DNA of 64,000 nt, from positions 4,953,501 to 5,017,500 of the forward strand of contig NZ_CP087176.1 of assembly GCF_024748695.1 (NCBI RefSeq). Reading direction: 5' to 3'. The notes below the pieces were generated by a model. The model saw only the letters and a list, made by a program, of their open reading frames with translations, was not told the origin of the DNA and did not search any database. The stretch comes from Pseudomonas sp. B21-040 (GTDB taxonomy: Bacteria; Pseudomonadota; Gammaproteobacteria; Pseudomonadales; Pseudomonadaceae). Shown here one piece after another: positions 13,768 to 18,920 of the stretch; the stretch's first letter is position 1; each line of letters starts with the position of its first letter. The translations under genes were made by a program, and so were the position numbers.

Positions 13768-14766
13768 TCAGAACAAGCCGTCACTCTCTGGCATTTCATA
13801 TTCCGATGAGGACCAAACCGGACCATTGGACTTACCGGGCTTGCCCAGCGTCGGCTCCTTCTCCAGACACGTCACCAGGTAATCAATCAGCACCCGTATC
13901 TTGGGCGGCAGGTACCGGGTTGGCGAATGCAGCAACCAGGCACCTCCGTGGTAGGACGCCAGAAAGGTCCAGTCCGGCAGCACCTGCACCATCAACCCTT
14001 TCTCCAGGGCATGGCGCGCAGTGAAATAGGGCAAGCTGCCAATGCCGATATGCTGCAACACCGCGCCATAACGTACGCCGGTGTGATTGGCGGCATATCG
14101 CCCACGCACACCGACGGTCACCGATTTGCTGCCCTTCCTGAATTTCCAGCGCGCATCGCTCGGGGTTTCACCCAGGTAAATGCAACTGTGATTAAGCAAG
14201 TCATGGGGGTGAGTCGGCGTACCGTGTTCAGCCAGATACTGCGGTGTCGCGCAGAGCAAATGGTCGATGGTGAGCAACTGCCGCCCCACCAGCCCTGCTG
14301 GCGGCCGGTCGGTAATGCGAATCGCCAGGTCGACGTTGTCGTCGATCAAATCAACCTGCCGGTCCTCAAGCAATAGCTCCACGTCCACTTTTGGATAACG
14401 GCGTAAAAACTCCGGCATATGCGGGTGAATCACGATCCGGCCTACCGCTTTCGGGACGCTGATACGCACCAGCCCTTCGGGTTCGTCAGTGAACTGGCCA
14501 CTGATTTCCATCACTGACTTGGCCGCGCTGACCATTTCCTGACAACGCTTGAACACCTCTTCGCCACCGTCGCTCAGGCGCAGTTTGCGCGTGGTGCGTT
14601 GCAGTAGACGCGTGGCCAGGGCCTTCTCCAGTCGCGAAATACTACGACTCACTGCCGAGGGTGAAGCCCCCAGTTGGCGGGCTGCTTCGGAGAAGCTGCC
14701 GGTCTCGACAACCTTGACGAAAATCGCCATTTCACCGAGCAGCGGCAGTGGAAGATTTATGCTCAC
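13768..14766 (-). CDS. LysR family transcriptional regulator
   Basis: A 332-residue LysR regulator. The N-terminal winged HTH (ETGSFSEAARQLGASPSAVS, residues about 20-40) is followed by a linker helix and a periplasmic-binding-like effector domain from about residue 100. Translation probably starts at GTG 14766, with AAGGA about ten bases upstream. It is divergently transcribed from the AlaX-2OG oxygenase-LysE genes across only 89 bases, which contain a near-consensus promoter for those genes. By the usual LysR logic it may control that cassette, but this is inference. The effector is unknown. Confidence 0.9.
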   Translation of the reverse strand: MSINLPLPLLGEMAIFVKVVETGSFSEAARQLGASPSAVSRSISRLEKALATRLLQRTTRKLRLSDGGEEVFKRCQEMVSAAKSVMEISGQFTDEPEGLVRISVPKAVGRIVIHPHMPEFLRRYPKVDVELLLEDRQVDLIDDNVDLAIRITDRPPAGLVGRQLLTIDHLLCATPQYLAEHGTPTHPHDLLNHSCIYLGETPSDARWKFRKGSKSVTVGVRGRYAANHTGVRYGAVLQHIGIGSLPYFTARHALEKGLMVQVLPDWTFLASYHGGAWLLHSPTRYLPPKIRVLIDYLVTCLEKEPTLGKPGKSNGPVWSSSEYEMPESDGLF

Positions 14767-14796
14767 AGCGCAACAGTCCTTTGATGTTTGAACGGA

Positions 14797-14825
14797 TTAT
14801 CACGCAATTCCACGCTTCATATAAT
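14797..14825 (+). promoter_or_regulatory. sigma-70-like promoter of the alaX gene
   Basis: A perfect -10 hexamer TATAAT (14820-14825) lies 17 bases after TTATCA (14797-14802), a four-of-six match to the -35 consensus. It is in an AT-rich gap between the divergent LysR gene and alaX, about 30 bases before the alaX ATG. A LysR operator would be expected to overlap it, but no clear T-N11-A site could be singled out. Confidence 0.6.
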
Positions 14826-14855
14826 AAAAAAGAAACTTTAATCAGGGCATGGAAT

Positions 14856-15482
14856 ATGACGCTCCGCCTCTTTTTCCATAGTGATGACCTCAAGGCTAAT
14901 GTGGAAGTCTTGGAGTGCACGCCCCACGAGAACGAATTTGCCGTGGTGCTGCGCGCCACGCTGTTTCACCCGCAAGGTGGCGGCCAGCCTTTTGATACCG
15001 GCTGGATCGGCGATAGTCAGGTACTGCGTGTCGTCCAGGATCCCGACCGGATCATTCATTTCGTCGATCAACCGGTTAAACCCGGCATGACCCAGATTCG
15101 TATCGACGAAGAGCGGCGCCAGTTCAATACGCGCATGCATTCCGCCGGGCATTTGATTGGTCATTTCGTCCAGGCCAGAGGCTGGATGCCGACCAAGGCG
15201 CATCACTGGCCGGACGAAGGTCGGGTGCAGTTCAAAGCGCTGGAAAGTGCCCAGGAGCTCGATGTCGAATCCGTTCAACTCGGCATCGCACAGTTTATTG
15301 GCCAGGATTGGCCGCGCCTGACGTCATTGCGTGAAGGCGCCCGGGAAATCGGTTTCGGTGAACTGCCCGCCTATGGCTGCGGCGGCACCCATGTACGTAG
15401 CCTGAAGGAATTAGGCACGGTCACGATCGCTTCCCTTTCATTGAAAAAGGGAACGCTGTCAGTCCACTACTCCGTGGATTGA
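14856..15482 (+). CDS. AlaX-type alanyl-tRNA editing protein
   Basis: A 208-residue free-standing editing domain homologous to the editing half of alanyl-tRNA synthetase. Such proteins hydrolyse mischarged aminoacyl-tRNA in trans. The zinc ligands are intact: HSAGH near residue 91 and CGGTH near 179. The N-terminal glycine-rich PQGGGQPFDTGWIG segment is also typical. I chose ATG 14856 (MTLRLFFHSDD) with AGGG eight bases upstream; the upstream in-frame extension overlaps the promoter. The next genes encode a 2OG-Fe(II) oxygenase and a LysE exporter, which suggests clearance of tRNA charged with an unusual amino acid. That link is inference. Confidence 0.88.
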   Translation: MTLRLFFHSDDLKANVEVLECTPHENEFAVVLRATLFHPQGGGQPFDTGWIGDSQVLRVVQDPDRIIHFVDQPVKPGMTQIRIDEERRQFNTRMHSAGHLIGHFVQARGWMPTKAHHWPDEGRVQFKALESAQELDVESVQLGIAQFIGQDWPRLTSLREGAREIGFGELPAYGCGGTHVRSLKELGTVTIASLSLKKGTLSVHYSVD

Positions 15483-15574
15483 GCATTTGGGCGATGCCGG
15501 CAACGTCATCGCCTGACGCCGGGGGAGCCTGCGCTCGCGGGTTCTGTTGACTATCTGATAGATGGACCTAAGAC

Positions 15575-16345
15575 ATGATGCTTGACGTCGAGCGTCTCGA
15601 TGAGACGTGCATAAAAAAACTGGCCAACGAAGAAGTCCTCGCCATCCGCGTCAAAGGCTTGCTGCCCCAACCGCTGGCGATTCAGATTGGCGACAAGATC
15701 CTCGCCCCGGGCTTCGAAGGCTATATCAATGCGCCTAGTATCGGTCGTATCGGCATGGCGTTTTATGAGGCGGAAAACCAGCCGTTGCTGATCGAGGACT
15801 ACTTCGAACGCGCCACCCGCAATATCGCGGAATTACGTAACCGTTGCGCGCCCTATTCGTCCCCGGTCGACACCCTGCGCTGCATGCTCGACGAATCCTG
15901 GCCGGCAGGCGCTCACCTGGAAAACCTCTACGGTCGCAAGATGTATGTCGGGCTGTCACGGGTCGTGAAACCGGGGGTGTGCTTCCTCGCCCACCATGAC
16001 ATTTTCGCCAAGGACGCCCCGGACAGTTACCAGGCCAGAAGCCTGGAAGCGCAGTTCGCCTGCAACGTTTACCTGAACATGCCCACCGAAGGCGGCGCGC
16101 TGCAGATGTGGGACGACGACATTTCGCCGGACCAGTTCGACGAAATGCGCGGTGACAGTTACGGCATCGACCCTGCCCTGCTTGGCCCTCCCACACTTGA
16201 GATACGTCCCGAGCCGGGTGATTTCATCATGTTCAATTCGCGCTGCATGCACTCGGTGACACCGGGTGTGGCAGATCCACGATTGAGCCTTTCGTTCTTT
16301 GTCGGCTATCGCGGCAATGCTTCACCCCTTACCTTCTGGAGTTGA
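15575..16345 (+). CDS. 2OG-Fe(II) oxygenase, probable amino-acid hydroxylase
   Basis: A 256-residue non-haem iron protein. The facial triad is visible as His140/His141-x-Asp142 in FLAHHDIF and His226 in RCMHSVTPG, and Arg236 in DPRLSLSF is positioned to bind 2-oxoglutarate. The HxD most probably uses His140 and Asp142. Length and layout resemble the BesD/Hal family of enzymes acting on free amino acids. BesD-type halogenases replace the Asp by Gly; the Asp here predicts hydroxylation. The family assignment is from memory of motifs and size, not from an alignment. The stop is one base before the LysE-type gene start, so the two are surely co-transcribed. Confidence 0.78.
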   Translation: MMLDVERLDETCIKKLANEEVLAIRVKGLLPQPLAIQIGDKILAPGFEGYINAPSIGRIGMAFYEAENQPLLIEDYFERATRNIAELRNRCAPYSSPVDTLRCMLDESWPAGAHLENLYGRKMYVGLSRVVKPGVCFLAHHDIFAKDAPDSYQARSLEAQFACNVYLNMPTEGGALQMWDDDISPDQFDEMRGDSYGIDPALLGPPTLEIRPEPGDFIMFNSRCMHSVTPGVADPRLSLSFFVGYRGNASPLTFWS

Positions 16346-16346
16346 A

Positions 16347-16985
16347 ATGCTTTCGAGTTACTTGGGCGAGTTTCTGGCGCTGGCAACCATTCACTTTCTG
16401 GCCGTGGTCGCACCCGGGCCGGATTTTGCCGTCACGATTCGTCAGAGCGTGCGCTTCGGTCGGCTGGTGGGCATCTGCACGGCGCTGGGCATCGGCGCGG
16501 GGATTTCCGTGCACGTGCTTTACACGCTGCTCGGGGTCGGCGCGCTGATGCATACAACGCCTTGGTTGTTGACCGTGGCCAAGGTCGTGGGCGGCGCTTA
16601 CATTTTGTACCTCGGGGTCAGCCTGTTGCGCAGCAAACCCAAGTCCGCGCTTGAGGGCGACCAGGCCGTGGACGAACCTGTCGTCAAACAAACGCTATTG
16701 AAGGCATTCACCACCGGGTTTCTGACCAACGCGACGAACCCCAAGGCGACCCTGTTTTTCCTGGCGATTTTCACCACCATCATCAGTGCCACGACACCGC
16801 TAAAGATCCAGGCGCTGTATGGGGTCTGGATGTGTTTTGTGAATGCGTTGTGGTTTGTGATCGTCGCGCTGTTCTTTTCCAGCGCCCGGGTGCGCGTGCT
16901 GTTCATGCGCATGGGGCATTGGTTTGAACGGACGATGGGGGTGATTCTGATCCTGTTTGCCGGGCGTCTGATTCTGTCGATGTAA
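16347..16985 (+). CDS. LysE/RhtB family amino-acid exporter
   Basis: A 212-residue inner-membrane protein with about six transmembrane helices and the LysE signature AVVAPGPDFAVTIRQSVRFG near residues 19-38. A second conserved region, LTNATNPKATLFFLAIF, lies near residue 128. Family members export amino acids or close analogs using the proton gradient. TCTGGAG precedes the ATG at 16347, overlapping the end of the oxygenase gene. Its tight coupling to the oxygenase suggests that it exports the modified amino acid or excess substrate (inference). A terminator follows. Confidence 0.9.
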   Translation: MLSSYLGEFLALATIHFLAVVAPGPDFAVTIRQSVRFGRLVGICTALGIGAGISVHVLYTLLGVGALMHTTPWLLTVAKVVGGAYILYLGVSLLRSKPKSALEGDQAVDEPVVKQTLLKAFTTGFLTNATNPKATLFFLAIFTTIISATTPLKIQALYGVWMCFVNALWFVIVALFFSSARVRVLFMRMGHWFERTMGVILILFAGRLILSM

Positions 16986-17000
16986 AACCTGCGCCCACGC

Positions 17001-17035
17001 AAAAGGCCCGCCGAGTCTGACTCGCGGGCCTTTTT
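17001..17035. terminator. rho-independent terminator after the LysE-type gene
   Basis: A GC-rich stem AAAAGGCCCGC / GCGGGCCTTTT with an internal CGAGT/ACTCG extension closes 15 bases after the LysE-type stop codon and is followed by TTTTT. It ends the AlaX-oxygenase-LysE transcript. Confidence 0.85.
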
Positions 17036-17180: not shown

Positions 17181-18920
17181 ATGGACTTTTCACTCAAGCA
17201 CCTGGCCGCGACCACCCTGATGATCGCCAGCCTTTCTTCGTTCACCCCTTCTGCATTTGCCAACATCACGGCGCAACAGAGCACGGCCATCCTCAAGACG
17301 TTCAGTGAATCATCGGTCACCGACTTCAGGGAGTTCCTGGGACGCCTGGCCCAGAGTGACGTCGCCAAATCAGGCGACCTCGGCCCGGCCATCAGCGCCT
17401 TTCTCGATAACAAGGCACTTTCTTCTGAACAGCAGAACGAAATCCATCGCCTGCTTGGCCTTTATGCACGATTGAAATACGGCAGCGCGGCCACCGAGAC
17501 CCTGCGTGAGCTGGTGGCCATCCCGACCTTCCGCGTGGACGGCGTCGCTCAGTACGACAATCCTGAATTCATCAAGATCGCCGACAAGATCAAAGACCTG
17601 GCCCAGTCCTTCAACCTGAATTTTCGCAACATCGACAACCGCGTCTATGAAATCGCCCTTGAGGGCAGCGGCGATGAAGTGGTGGGCATTCACGCGCATG
17701 CCGATGTGGTGCCCGTGACGCCGGAGAACTGGGTACTGAAAGACGGCACCCGACTCGATCCGTTCAAGGTCACCCTGATCGGCGATCGCATGTATGGTCG
17801 GGGTACCGAGGACGACAAGAACGGCATCGTGGTGTCGCTCTATGCGATGAAGGTCATCAAGGAAGAGAAGCTGCCGCTGGCGAGGAACTTCAAGCTGCTG
17901 GTAGACACCACCGAAGAAACCACCGGCGACGCCATTCCCTACTACTTCGAACACAATCCGACACCCAACTACAACCTGGCGCTGGATGGCGGCTACCCGG
18001 TGGTGATTGCCGAGAAAGGCTACGGCACCGTCATGGCCAGCTTTGCCCGACGTGATGGCGAGGGCAAGGGTGCTGAAATCGTCTCAATGACGGGCGGACT
18101 GGCCACCAACCAGATTCCGTCGGCATCGGTTGTCACCCTGGTGAGTGACAAGCCTGACGAATTGGCCGCCAGCCTGCACAAAGCGGGTACTGAGTATGCG
18201 AAGCGCAATGGCGGTAATTTTGAGGTGACGGCCAAGGTCGTCGGCAAGGACGTGAAACTCACGGTTACCGGCGTTTCCGCCCACTCCTCCGAGCCTGAGT
18301 CAGGCGTCAACCCGGTGGCCAGGATGCTGGACTTCATCAACAGCCTCGACGGCAAGGTCGCGCTCAAACATAACCACATCACCGACGCCGCCCGCTACGC
18401 CGCCGACAACTGGGGGCTGGACTACCTGGGCGGCAAACTGGGTGTCGGTTTTTCCGATTCATTCATGGGGCCACTCACCGCGTCCCTGACTTTTGTCGGG
18501 ATGGATGAAAAGGCTTTCAAGCTGGCGGTCAACCTGCGTGTACCGAAGGGCAAGTCCCCGGAAGCGCTGAACAGCGAAATCACCGATAAGCTGGCCACCT
18601 GGAGCAAGAAAAGCCACATCGCACCGACCTTCGATATCTCGATCGCCGAGCCGATGTACCGCAACCCTGAGGGTGAATGGGTCAAGGCCTTGCTGGCCGT
18701 AGCCAGCGAAAACCTGGGCATGGAGCACAAGTACGGCACCTCTGCCGGCGCCACCTCGGTCCATGAACTGCCCAATGGCGTGCAGTTTGGCCTGGCCCGG
18801 CCCGAGGTGAAATACACCGGCCACACCGACAATGAGTTCAAGACGGTCGACCAGTTCCTGCTGGACCTGCAGATCGTGACCGAAATGATGGGGCGCATCG
18901 GGCAGCTGCCGAAGCTCTGA
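17181..18920 (+). CDS. secreted M20 family dipeptidase/metallopeptidase
   Basis: A 579-residue M20 peptidase with an N-terminal signal peptide (hydrophobic core TTLMIASLSSFTPSAFA, cleavage near residue 28). The zinc ligands are present: HAHADVVPV near 172, GRGTEDDKNG near 208 (bridging Asp) and the Glu pair TTEETTGD near 245; a late His lies in TSVHELPNG near 535. The organisation with a long inserted lid domain resembles PepV-type dipeptidases. It would act in the periplasm or outside the cell on small peptides. It stands alone between a terminator and a REP pair; no transporter is adjacent. Confidence 0.9.
   Translation: MDFSLKHLAATTLMIASLSSFTPSAFANITAQQSTAILKTFSESSVTDFREFLGRLAQSDVAKSGDLGPAISAFLDNKALSSEQQNEIHRLLGLYARLKYGSAATETLRELVAIPTFRVDGVAQYDNPEFIKIADKIKDLAQSFNLNFRNIDNRVYEIALEGSGDEVVGIHAHADVVPVTPENWVLKDGTRLDPFKVTLIGDRMYGRGTEDDKNGIVVSLYAMKVIKEEKLPLARNFKLLVDTTEETTGDAIPYYFEHNPTPNYNLALDGGYPVVIAEKGYGTVMASFARRDGEGKGAEIVSMTGGLATNQIPSASVVTLVSDKPDELAASLHKAGTEYAKRNGGNFEVTAKVVGKDVKLTVTGVSAHSSEPESGVNPVARMLDFINSLDGKVALKHNHITDAARYAADNWGLDYLGGKLGVGFSDSFMGPLTASLTFVGMDEKAFKLAVNLRVPKGKSPEALNSEITDKLATWSKKSHIAPTFDISIAEPMYRNPEGEWVKALLAVASENLGMEHKYGTSAGATSVHELPNGVQFGLARPEVKYTGHTDNEFKTVDQFLLDLQIVTEMMGRIGQLPKL

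Follow-up and report, generated by a model that had tools for sequence, protein, structure and literature searches.

Why would a bacterium whose alanyl-tRNA synthetase (AlaRS) has an intact editing site of its own (HSATH, CGGIH) hold a further, standalone tRNA-editing gene, and why should that gene stand in a row with an oxygenase and an amino-acid exporter? This question is raised by a 64,000-nt stretch of DNA from Pseudomonas sp. B21-040 (GCF_024748695.1, contig NZ_CP087176.1, positions 4,953,501-5,017,500 of the forward strand), taken from a genome of 6.75 Mb in one contig; the whole stretch is here called the window, and its own numbering is used below. At 13768-16985 the window holds a four-gene set, in which a LysR-type regulator gene on the minus strand is followed on the plus strand by genes for an AlaX-like protein, a 2-oxoglutarate (2OG)-Fe(II) oxygenase and a LysE exporter. 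Since the editing site of the host AlaRS is intact, the AlaX-like protein is not compensating for a defective synthetase. Judging from the sequence and its conservation, we consider it fairly probable that the set is a LysR-controlled cassette that would make, export and edit out an oxidised amino acid.

The four-gene set within and beyond Pseudomonas

The LysR-type regulator (13768-14766, minus strand; 129.8 bits to PF03466 and 73.5 bits to PF00126) is divergent from the operon and begins with GTG in the window, ATG standing at the same position in some relatives in the intergenic alignment. On the plus strand follow the putative AlaX-like trans-editing protein (208 amino acids, 14856-15482), the oxygenase (256 amino acids, 15575-16345) and the predicted LysE/RhtC-type amino-acid exporter (212 amino acids, 16347-16985). 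The longest open reading frame (ORF) of AlaX begins at 14748, upstream of the promoter, and the ATG at 14856 is the likelier start. The exporter belongs to PF01810 (120.1 bits, gathering cut-off 25.6) and scores 150.4 bits to the homoserine/threonine efflux subfamily TIGR00949, below the cut-off of 183.95, so that its substrate is not nameable from that model. A first-pass annotation made from the sequence alone had placed AlaX, oxygenase and LysE in a row beside a divergent LysR, with which the gene calls and family matches agree; the spacing of one base that it gave between the last two genes is likewise correct, the oxygenase stop codon ending at 16345 and the LysE ATG starting at 16347.

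The order LysR (minus), AlaX, oxygenase, LysE (all plus) is the same in 80/80 named Pseudomonas loci, a sample formed by the best 80 of 135 relatives from a contig scan, all with an oxygenase of at least 91% identity; the scan was aimed at distant relatives and gave just Pseudomonas orthologues among these best 80. Oxygenase identity to the window ranges from 91 to 100%, the upper value being found in P. mucoides P154a, and the median identities over the 80 loci are 96% for the oxygenase, 91% for LysR, 91% for LysE and 85% for AlaX. Of 199 same-genus genomes searched, 53 gave an oxygenase match of any kind and 43 an orthologue (identity of 90% or more); AlaX and LysE adjoin the orthologue in all 43, the AlaX of one genome (G034) being split by a frame break. 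LysR orthologues (expectation value, E <= 1e-120) occur in 90 of the 199 genomes, and these together with G030, whose LysR is split, form a census of 91 loci, chosen by LysR, in all of which LysR adjoins AlaX or LysE. Four states are seen among them, namely LysR-AlaX-oxygenase-LysE (43 loci), LysR-AlaX (37), LysR-LysE (6) and LysR-AlaX-LysE (5). The pattern is one-sided, as the oxygenase lacks AlaX or LysE in 0/43 loci and AlaX, LysE or both are found without the oxygenase in 48 of the 91. With relatedness ignored, Fisher p values over the 91 loci are 5.7e-16 for the oxygenase vs LysE, 0.028 vs AlaX and 1.5e-20 vs both, and on the LysR tree (91 rows) the presence of the oxygenase needs 4 changes.

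Loss of the oxygenase is supported in some of these loci. Two that lack it (L142, L173) keep its 3′ end before LysE, with scores of 23 and 28 that were reached by 0/300 shuffles, and two that lack both oxygenase and LysE (L141, L143) branch from within oxygenase-positive loci on the LysR tree. In L141 and L143 AlaX is followed by a terminator-like stretch resembling the one that follows LysE in the window; this was rejected as proof of a deletion, similar stretches matching elsewhere (L144, L182). Sequences resembling tRNA genes were also seen by eye 3′ of AlaX in L141 and L143.

Beyond the genus, the full unit with LysR was found in another genus of the family (G547, locus L161), with identities of 73, 48, 64 and 73% for LysR, AlaX, oxygenase and LysE, and in two species of another gammaproteobacterial family (loci L170 and L223), with 60, 44, 63 and 65% in G838 and 63, 44, 60 and 64% in G939; in that family 2/5 genomes searched hold the unit. 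The trio with no LysR relative in the stretch read occurs in G488 (L162; 45, 68 and 64% for AlaX, oxygenase and LysE) and in two plasmid records of Photobacterium sp. GJ3 (L031, L033), where genes are partly frame-broken. It is also found, again with no LysR relative, on a 6362-bp mobilizable plasmid of Acinetobacter johnsonii (NZ_CP068209.1, L032), for which the PLSDB table, itself incomplete, lists mobC alone as other gene. An Achromobacter record of the same length (NZ_CP068212.1, 6362 bp) matches the oxygenase in two places. Given the same order in 80/80 Pseudomonas loci and this recurrence in other families, the four-gene set is not a chance neighbourhood.

In a tree of 25 oxygenase rows, several of them long-branched, the nine rows linked to AlaX do not form a single clade (approximately unbiased test, p-AU 3.7e-5), and the AlaX link as a label takes 4 changes, at least 2 of which are forced by the starred branches, so that the pairing of AlaX with the oxygenase is recurrent. 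The row closest to the window is G488 and not G547 of the same family (support 97/94), which favours both recurrent pairing and transfer, and the cassette is apparently mobile. Within the limits of a first look the oxygenase seems rare across phylum and class, since broad draws found it in 4/398 genomes of the phylum (E <= 1e-10) and 4/369 of the class (E <= 1e-8), the window genome being counted in each; in the family of G488, 7/198 genomes hold 11 matches. No match was found in phages, and of 23 stretches in viral contigs that fitted a pattern none encodes a relative.

The near-consensus promoter of the first-pass annotation stands on its conservation and not on the scan. It is a sigma-70-type candidate at 14797-14825 (plus strand; -35 TTATCA, 17-nt spacer, -10 TATAAT) that agrees with the consensus at 10/12 positions; the scan by itself is not above chance, with 1 found vs 2.1 expected from shuffles, and the pattern TTATCA-17-TAnnnT is kept in 90/93 orthologous intergenic regions (the 91 census loci together with L161 and L170), including 6/6 with LysE as the first gene. 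Alignment of the same 93 regions points to a candidate LysR operator, TGAT-N13-ATCA, at 14782-14802 (plus strand), which would overlap the -35 box. In the intergenic region GGATTATCA is one of the best-conserved blocks, the TGAT arm of the candidate operator being less conserved, and CGGATTATCA is exact in 78/93. At the other end, a G+C-rich inverted repeat with five T at 17005-17035 (plus strand; scan match 17015-17029), between LysE and an M20 dipeptidase gene, is a likely terminator, although terminator matches of the scan in this region do not exceed those in shuffles. As an extra operon gene the M20 dipeptidase (17181-18920) was rejected, since the terminator-like stem precedes it and it was found in the flank of just 31 of the 80 named loci, a few of which are truncated at a contig edge; an upstream acyl-CoA dehydrogenase gene and a gene for 159 amino acids are found in 77.

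The AlaX-like protein with and without the oxygenase

The AlaX-like protein matches the PDB entries 9iuw (E 4.9e-15) and 2e1b (E 1.6e-13), the latter being AlaX-M of Pyrococcus horikoshii (PMC11295145). It is like AlaX-M in sequence, in GGGQ and in the metal-site motifs HxxxH and CxxxH of the superfamily (H95SAGH99, C175GGTH179), whose residues H95, H99, C175 and H179 are invariant in 12 aligned sequences including that of the window. It differs from AlaX-M in being linked to an oxygenase and an exporter and in scoring below the cut-offs of both tRNA_SAD (20.3 bits, cut-off 24) and the AlaX-M equivalog NF040865 (73 bits, E 2.9e-20, cut-off 300), and it is because of the latter that we call it AlaX-like. 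The resemblance to an archaeal AlaX-M would fit ordinary quality control, in which AlaX edits Ser- or Gly-tRNA-Ala, its gene came to lie near LysR, and an unrelated oxygenase and exporter joined the locus later as a pair, as would the fact that LysR-AlaX alone is the commonest of the oxygenase-less states (37/48 loci). Against it stand the low equivalog score, the intact editing site of the host AlaRS and the fact that AlaX is met again next to related oxygenases on plasmids and in distant genomes. Moreover, an AlaX relative (E <= 1e-10) is present in 89/199 same-genus genomes and in none of the other 110, so that AlaX is not a housekeeping gene in the genus, and we regard quality control of this kind as quite unlikely to account for the set.

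AlaX without the oxygenase is under purifying selection and is not decaying as a class. The median ratio of nonsynonymous to synonymous substitution rates (dN/dS) is 0.133 for AlaX without the oxygenase (248 pairs) vs 0.105 for AlaX with it (778 pairs), and all three motifs are kept in 35/37 AlaX-only copies, the other two (G106, G030) being split. Two loci (L156 in G134, L157 in G077) combine an AlaX of 43-45% identity with another LysE (33%) and, by eye, an AraC-like ORF, with no oxygenase, and may serve editing and export where a biosynthetic gene is missing. Such loci, like the AlaX and LysE found without the oxygenase at the locus of the window itself, would also suit a detoxification system, in which the oxygenase inactivates an amino-acid antimetabolite from a plant or a neighbour, LysE expels it, AlaX clears the tRNA and LysR senses it. 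Another kind of standalone editing protein, the B3/4-type CtdA, indeed shields Pseudomonas canavaninivorans from plant canavanine (PMC10018355). However, an oxygenase used in defence would be expected to occur sometimes without AlaX or LysE, and this is the case in 0/43 orthologue loci, though these stand for few independent events; on the whole we hold detoxification to be unlikely.

The oxygenase and its relatives

The oxygenase belongs to PF13640 (2OG-FeII_Oxy_3; 39.1 bits, gathering cut-off 27) and carries the HxD...H and distal Arg pattern, the putative iron ligands H140, D142 and H226 and the putative 2OG-binding R236, which we take to be the distal arginine, being invariant in 12 aligned sequences including that of the window. 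Among solved structures, profile searches place it nearest to WelO5-type halogenases (E 9.4e-12) and 3w20 (E 2.6e-6), presumably SadA. In WelO5-type halogenases HxG replaces HxD; the window protein has H140-H-D142 and no match to the WelO5-type family PF22814 at E <= 0.001, and the relatives in L161 and L171 pass the PF22814 cut-off of 27 bits (31.9 and 37.0) yet carry HxD. The oxygenase profile A5 retrieves HilA, a distant homologue, in two genomes, with hilB adjoining in each, and 11/12 members of the A5 alignment match the HilA equivalog NF041274 at E <= 1 (best 8.3e-10); the window oxygenase reaches 18 bits (E 0.0014), below the cut-off of 500 bits. One locus, L227, holds a PF00497 gene, hilA and hilB in a row. 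HilA of Pantoea hydroxylates free L-isoleucine (PMC3684760). An AlphaFold model from 24 Pseudomonas oxygenases (at least 91% alike to the window) was set aside, its mean predicted local distance difference test score (pLDDT) of 46.5 being too low for a fold search.

Several genomic contexts of oxygenase relatives suggest amino-acid chemistry. In 11/12 same-genus loci (L039-L049, the exception being L050) a paralogue of 33-36% identity directly precedes a cyclodipeptide-synthase-like gene, the latter scoring 30.4 bits to PF16715 in L039 and 24.7, under the cut-off of 27, in L048, and one further relative presumably sits in a cylindrospermopsin cluster. In the oxygenase tree, 8/25 rows have no link to AlaX, a cyclodipeptide synthase, Hil or the cyanobacterial cluster. 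An NMT1-like binding protein adjoins the paralogue loci L039 and L048, and by eye TonB-receptor-like and major facilitator superfamily-like ORFs do so too. In L172 (G592) the genes after a relative of 26% identity encode a member of the aromatic amino-acid lyase family and an AMP-binding enzyme.

Cyclodipeptide synthases take aminoacyl-tRNA, and the position of the paralogue directly before such a gene would be consistent with chemistry tethered to tRNA, in which the oxygenase acts on aminoacyl-tRNA with the tRNA as carrier, AlaX releases the product and LysE exports it. That AlaX accompanies the oxygenase in LysE-less loci too would agree with such a scheme as well. However, the paralogue could easily act on the cyclodipeptide itself, a pure release step does not account for AlaX where the oxygenase is absent, and known relatives use small molecules, HilA acting on free L-isoleucine as cited above and WelO5 being carrier-protein-independent by its Pfam name. 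We consider the tethered scheme very improbable; if it were true, a former proofreading enzyme would have become an off-loading hydrolase, and the paralogue linked to cyclodipeptide synthases would perform the same chemistry with another off-loader.

Known systems and the proposed function

The principle of an editing deacylase and an exporter beside an unusual-amino-acid pathway is known. In Streptomyces cattleya and MA37, the fluorothreonine locus has a deacylase gene, fthB, and an exporter gene, fthC, which are conserved with the biosynthetic genes and handle the toxicity of the amino acid (PMC7408626, PMC7162832). Compared by description, this locus is like the window in having a trans-acting aminoacyl-tRNA deacylase and an exporter beside unusual-amino-acid genes, and differs in that its biosynthetic genes are a fluorinase and a transaldolase where the window has a 2OG oxygenase, and in that FthB is termed ProXp-ST1-related and not AlaX (PMC11295145). 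If the oxygenase is taken as the biosynthetic enzyme, the window has the same co-conservation of such an enzyme with a deacylase and an exporter. The Hil/IDO operons of Pantoea, Pseudomonas and Bacillus thuringiensis, for which an antimicrobial product with self-detoxification has been proposed, share with the window a LysR regulator (HilR) and a PF13640 dioxygenase (HilA), and some have an RhtA-type exporter (PMC3684760). The window has AlaX and a LysE-type exporter instead of HilB, HilC and HilP, and among its neighbours scanned there is no hilB (PF10014), hilC (short-chain dehydrogenase) or hilP (solute-binding). AlaX is not mentioned in the main text of that paper, and searches of open-licence papers did not find the combination of AlaX, PF13640 oxygenase and LysE, which does not imply its absence from print. 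The statement of the first-pass annotation that no system with exactly this set had been described is thus borne out in these searches as far as the set goes, but the principle had already been described for fluorothreonine.

A parallel is found within the genus itself. In G031 (L179, 10548-15655) genes for an adenylation protein, a 77-amino-acid carrier protein, a SyrB2-type chlorinase, an AlaX-like protein, an EamA exporter and a thioesterase lie in a row; the chlorinase scores 443 bits to TIGR01762 (cut-off 226) and E 2.2e-132 to 2fct, and the AlaX between it and the exporter is diverged (32-35%). From these matches L179 is probably a cluster for a free chlorinated amino acid with its own tRNA-editing gene. 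As in the window, AlaX and an exporter adjoin the predicted enzymes of an unusual-amino-acid pathway; unlike the window, the cluster has an adenylation protein, a carrier protein and a thioesterase, which point towards carrier-bound chemistry, its exporter is of the EamA type and its oxygenase is of another Pfam family (PhyH).

That the cassette would make, export and protect against a product is supported by the co-conservation of its genes, their recurrence, the one-sided co-occurrence, the purifying selection and kept motifs of AlaX without the oxygenase, the parallel in G031 and the distant homology to HilA as a hydroxylase of free L-isoleucine. The idea of the first-pass annotation, an amino-acid cassette, is partly supported: it had been made to depend on co-conservation, and this holds in the 80/80 named loci, in distant taxa and in plasmids carrying AlaX and oxygenase with or without LysE; what the annotation had overlooked is the frequency of AlaX without the oxygenase. 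This and several other observations weigh against such a function. AlaX stands without the oxygenase in 42/91 loci, which shows an oxygenase-independent use of AlaX, and it adjoins 0/14 same-genus paralogue loci and 1/11 oxygenase matches in the family of G488, many family members being without AlaX. In plasmids of Caballeronia and Undibacterium and in G869, the oxygenase is followed by AlaX, and no LysE was found beside them. A sign test for the one-sided pattern was not significant and cannot reach significance with just 3-4 independent contrasts, none of which opposes the pattern. No oxygenase remnant was found in 9/11 tested oxygenase-less, LysE-bearing loci, and since remnants are present in just two, the deeper oxygenase-less lineages may never have had the gene. 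Finally, the nearest solved relatives of the oxygenase are WelO5-type halogenases, which act on alkaloids, and SadA, which acts on N-substituted amino acids.

In the make, export and edit scheme that we favour, the oxygenase would use 2-oxoglutarate, Fe(II) and O2 to oxidise a small amino acid, and the product would be near enough to a protein amino acid to be charged on tRNA. AlaX would then hydrolyse the wrong aminoacyl ester in trans, LysE would export the free product, as its family suggests, and outside the cell the product may act as an antimetabolite on competitors or as a signal. Non-producers that are nonetheless protected would be those relatives in which AlaX, LysE or both stand without the oxygenase. 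AlaX-M recognises tRNA-Ala via G3:U70 (PMC11295145), and similar recognition by the window protein would suggest as product a small amino acid resembling alanine or serine; alternatively, the RhtC-like exporter suggests a threonine-like product.

If this is true, the set would be a very small, plasmid-borne system of the antimetabolite type with a proofreading enzyme as its immunity gene, and relatives that only edit would occupy the same chromosomal place as producers. Unusual amino acids could then be sought in genomes through AlaX-like genes that adjoin an exporter and either an oxygenase or a halogenase, and the same arrangement is a possible reason for the patchy occurrence of accessory AlaX in bacteria whose AlaRS already proofreads.

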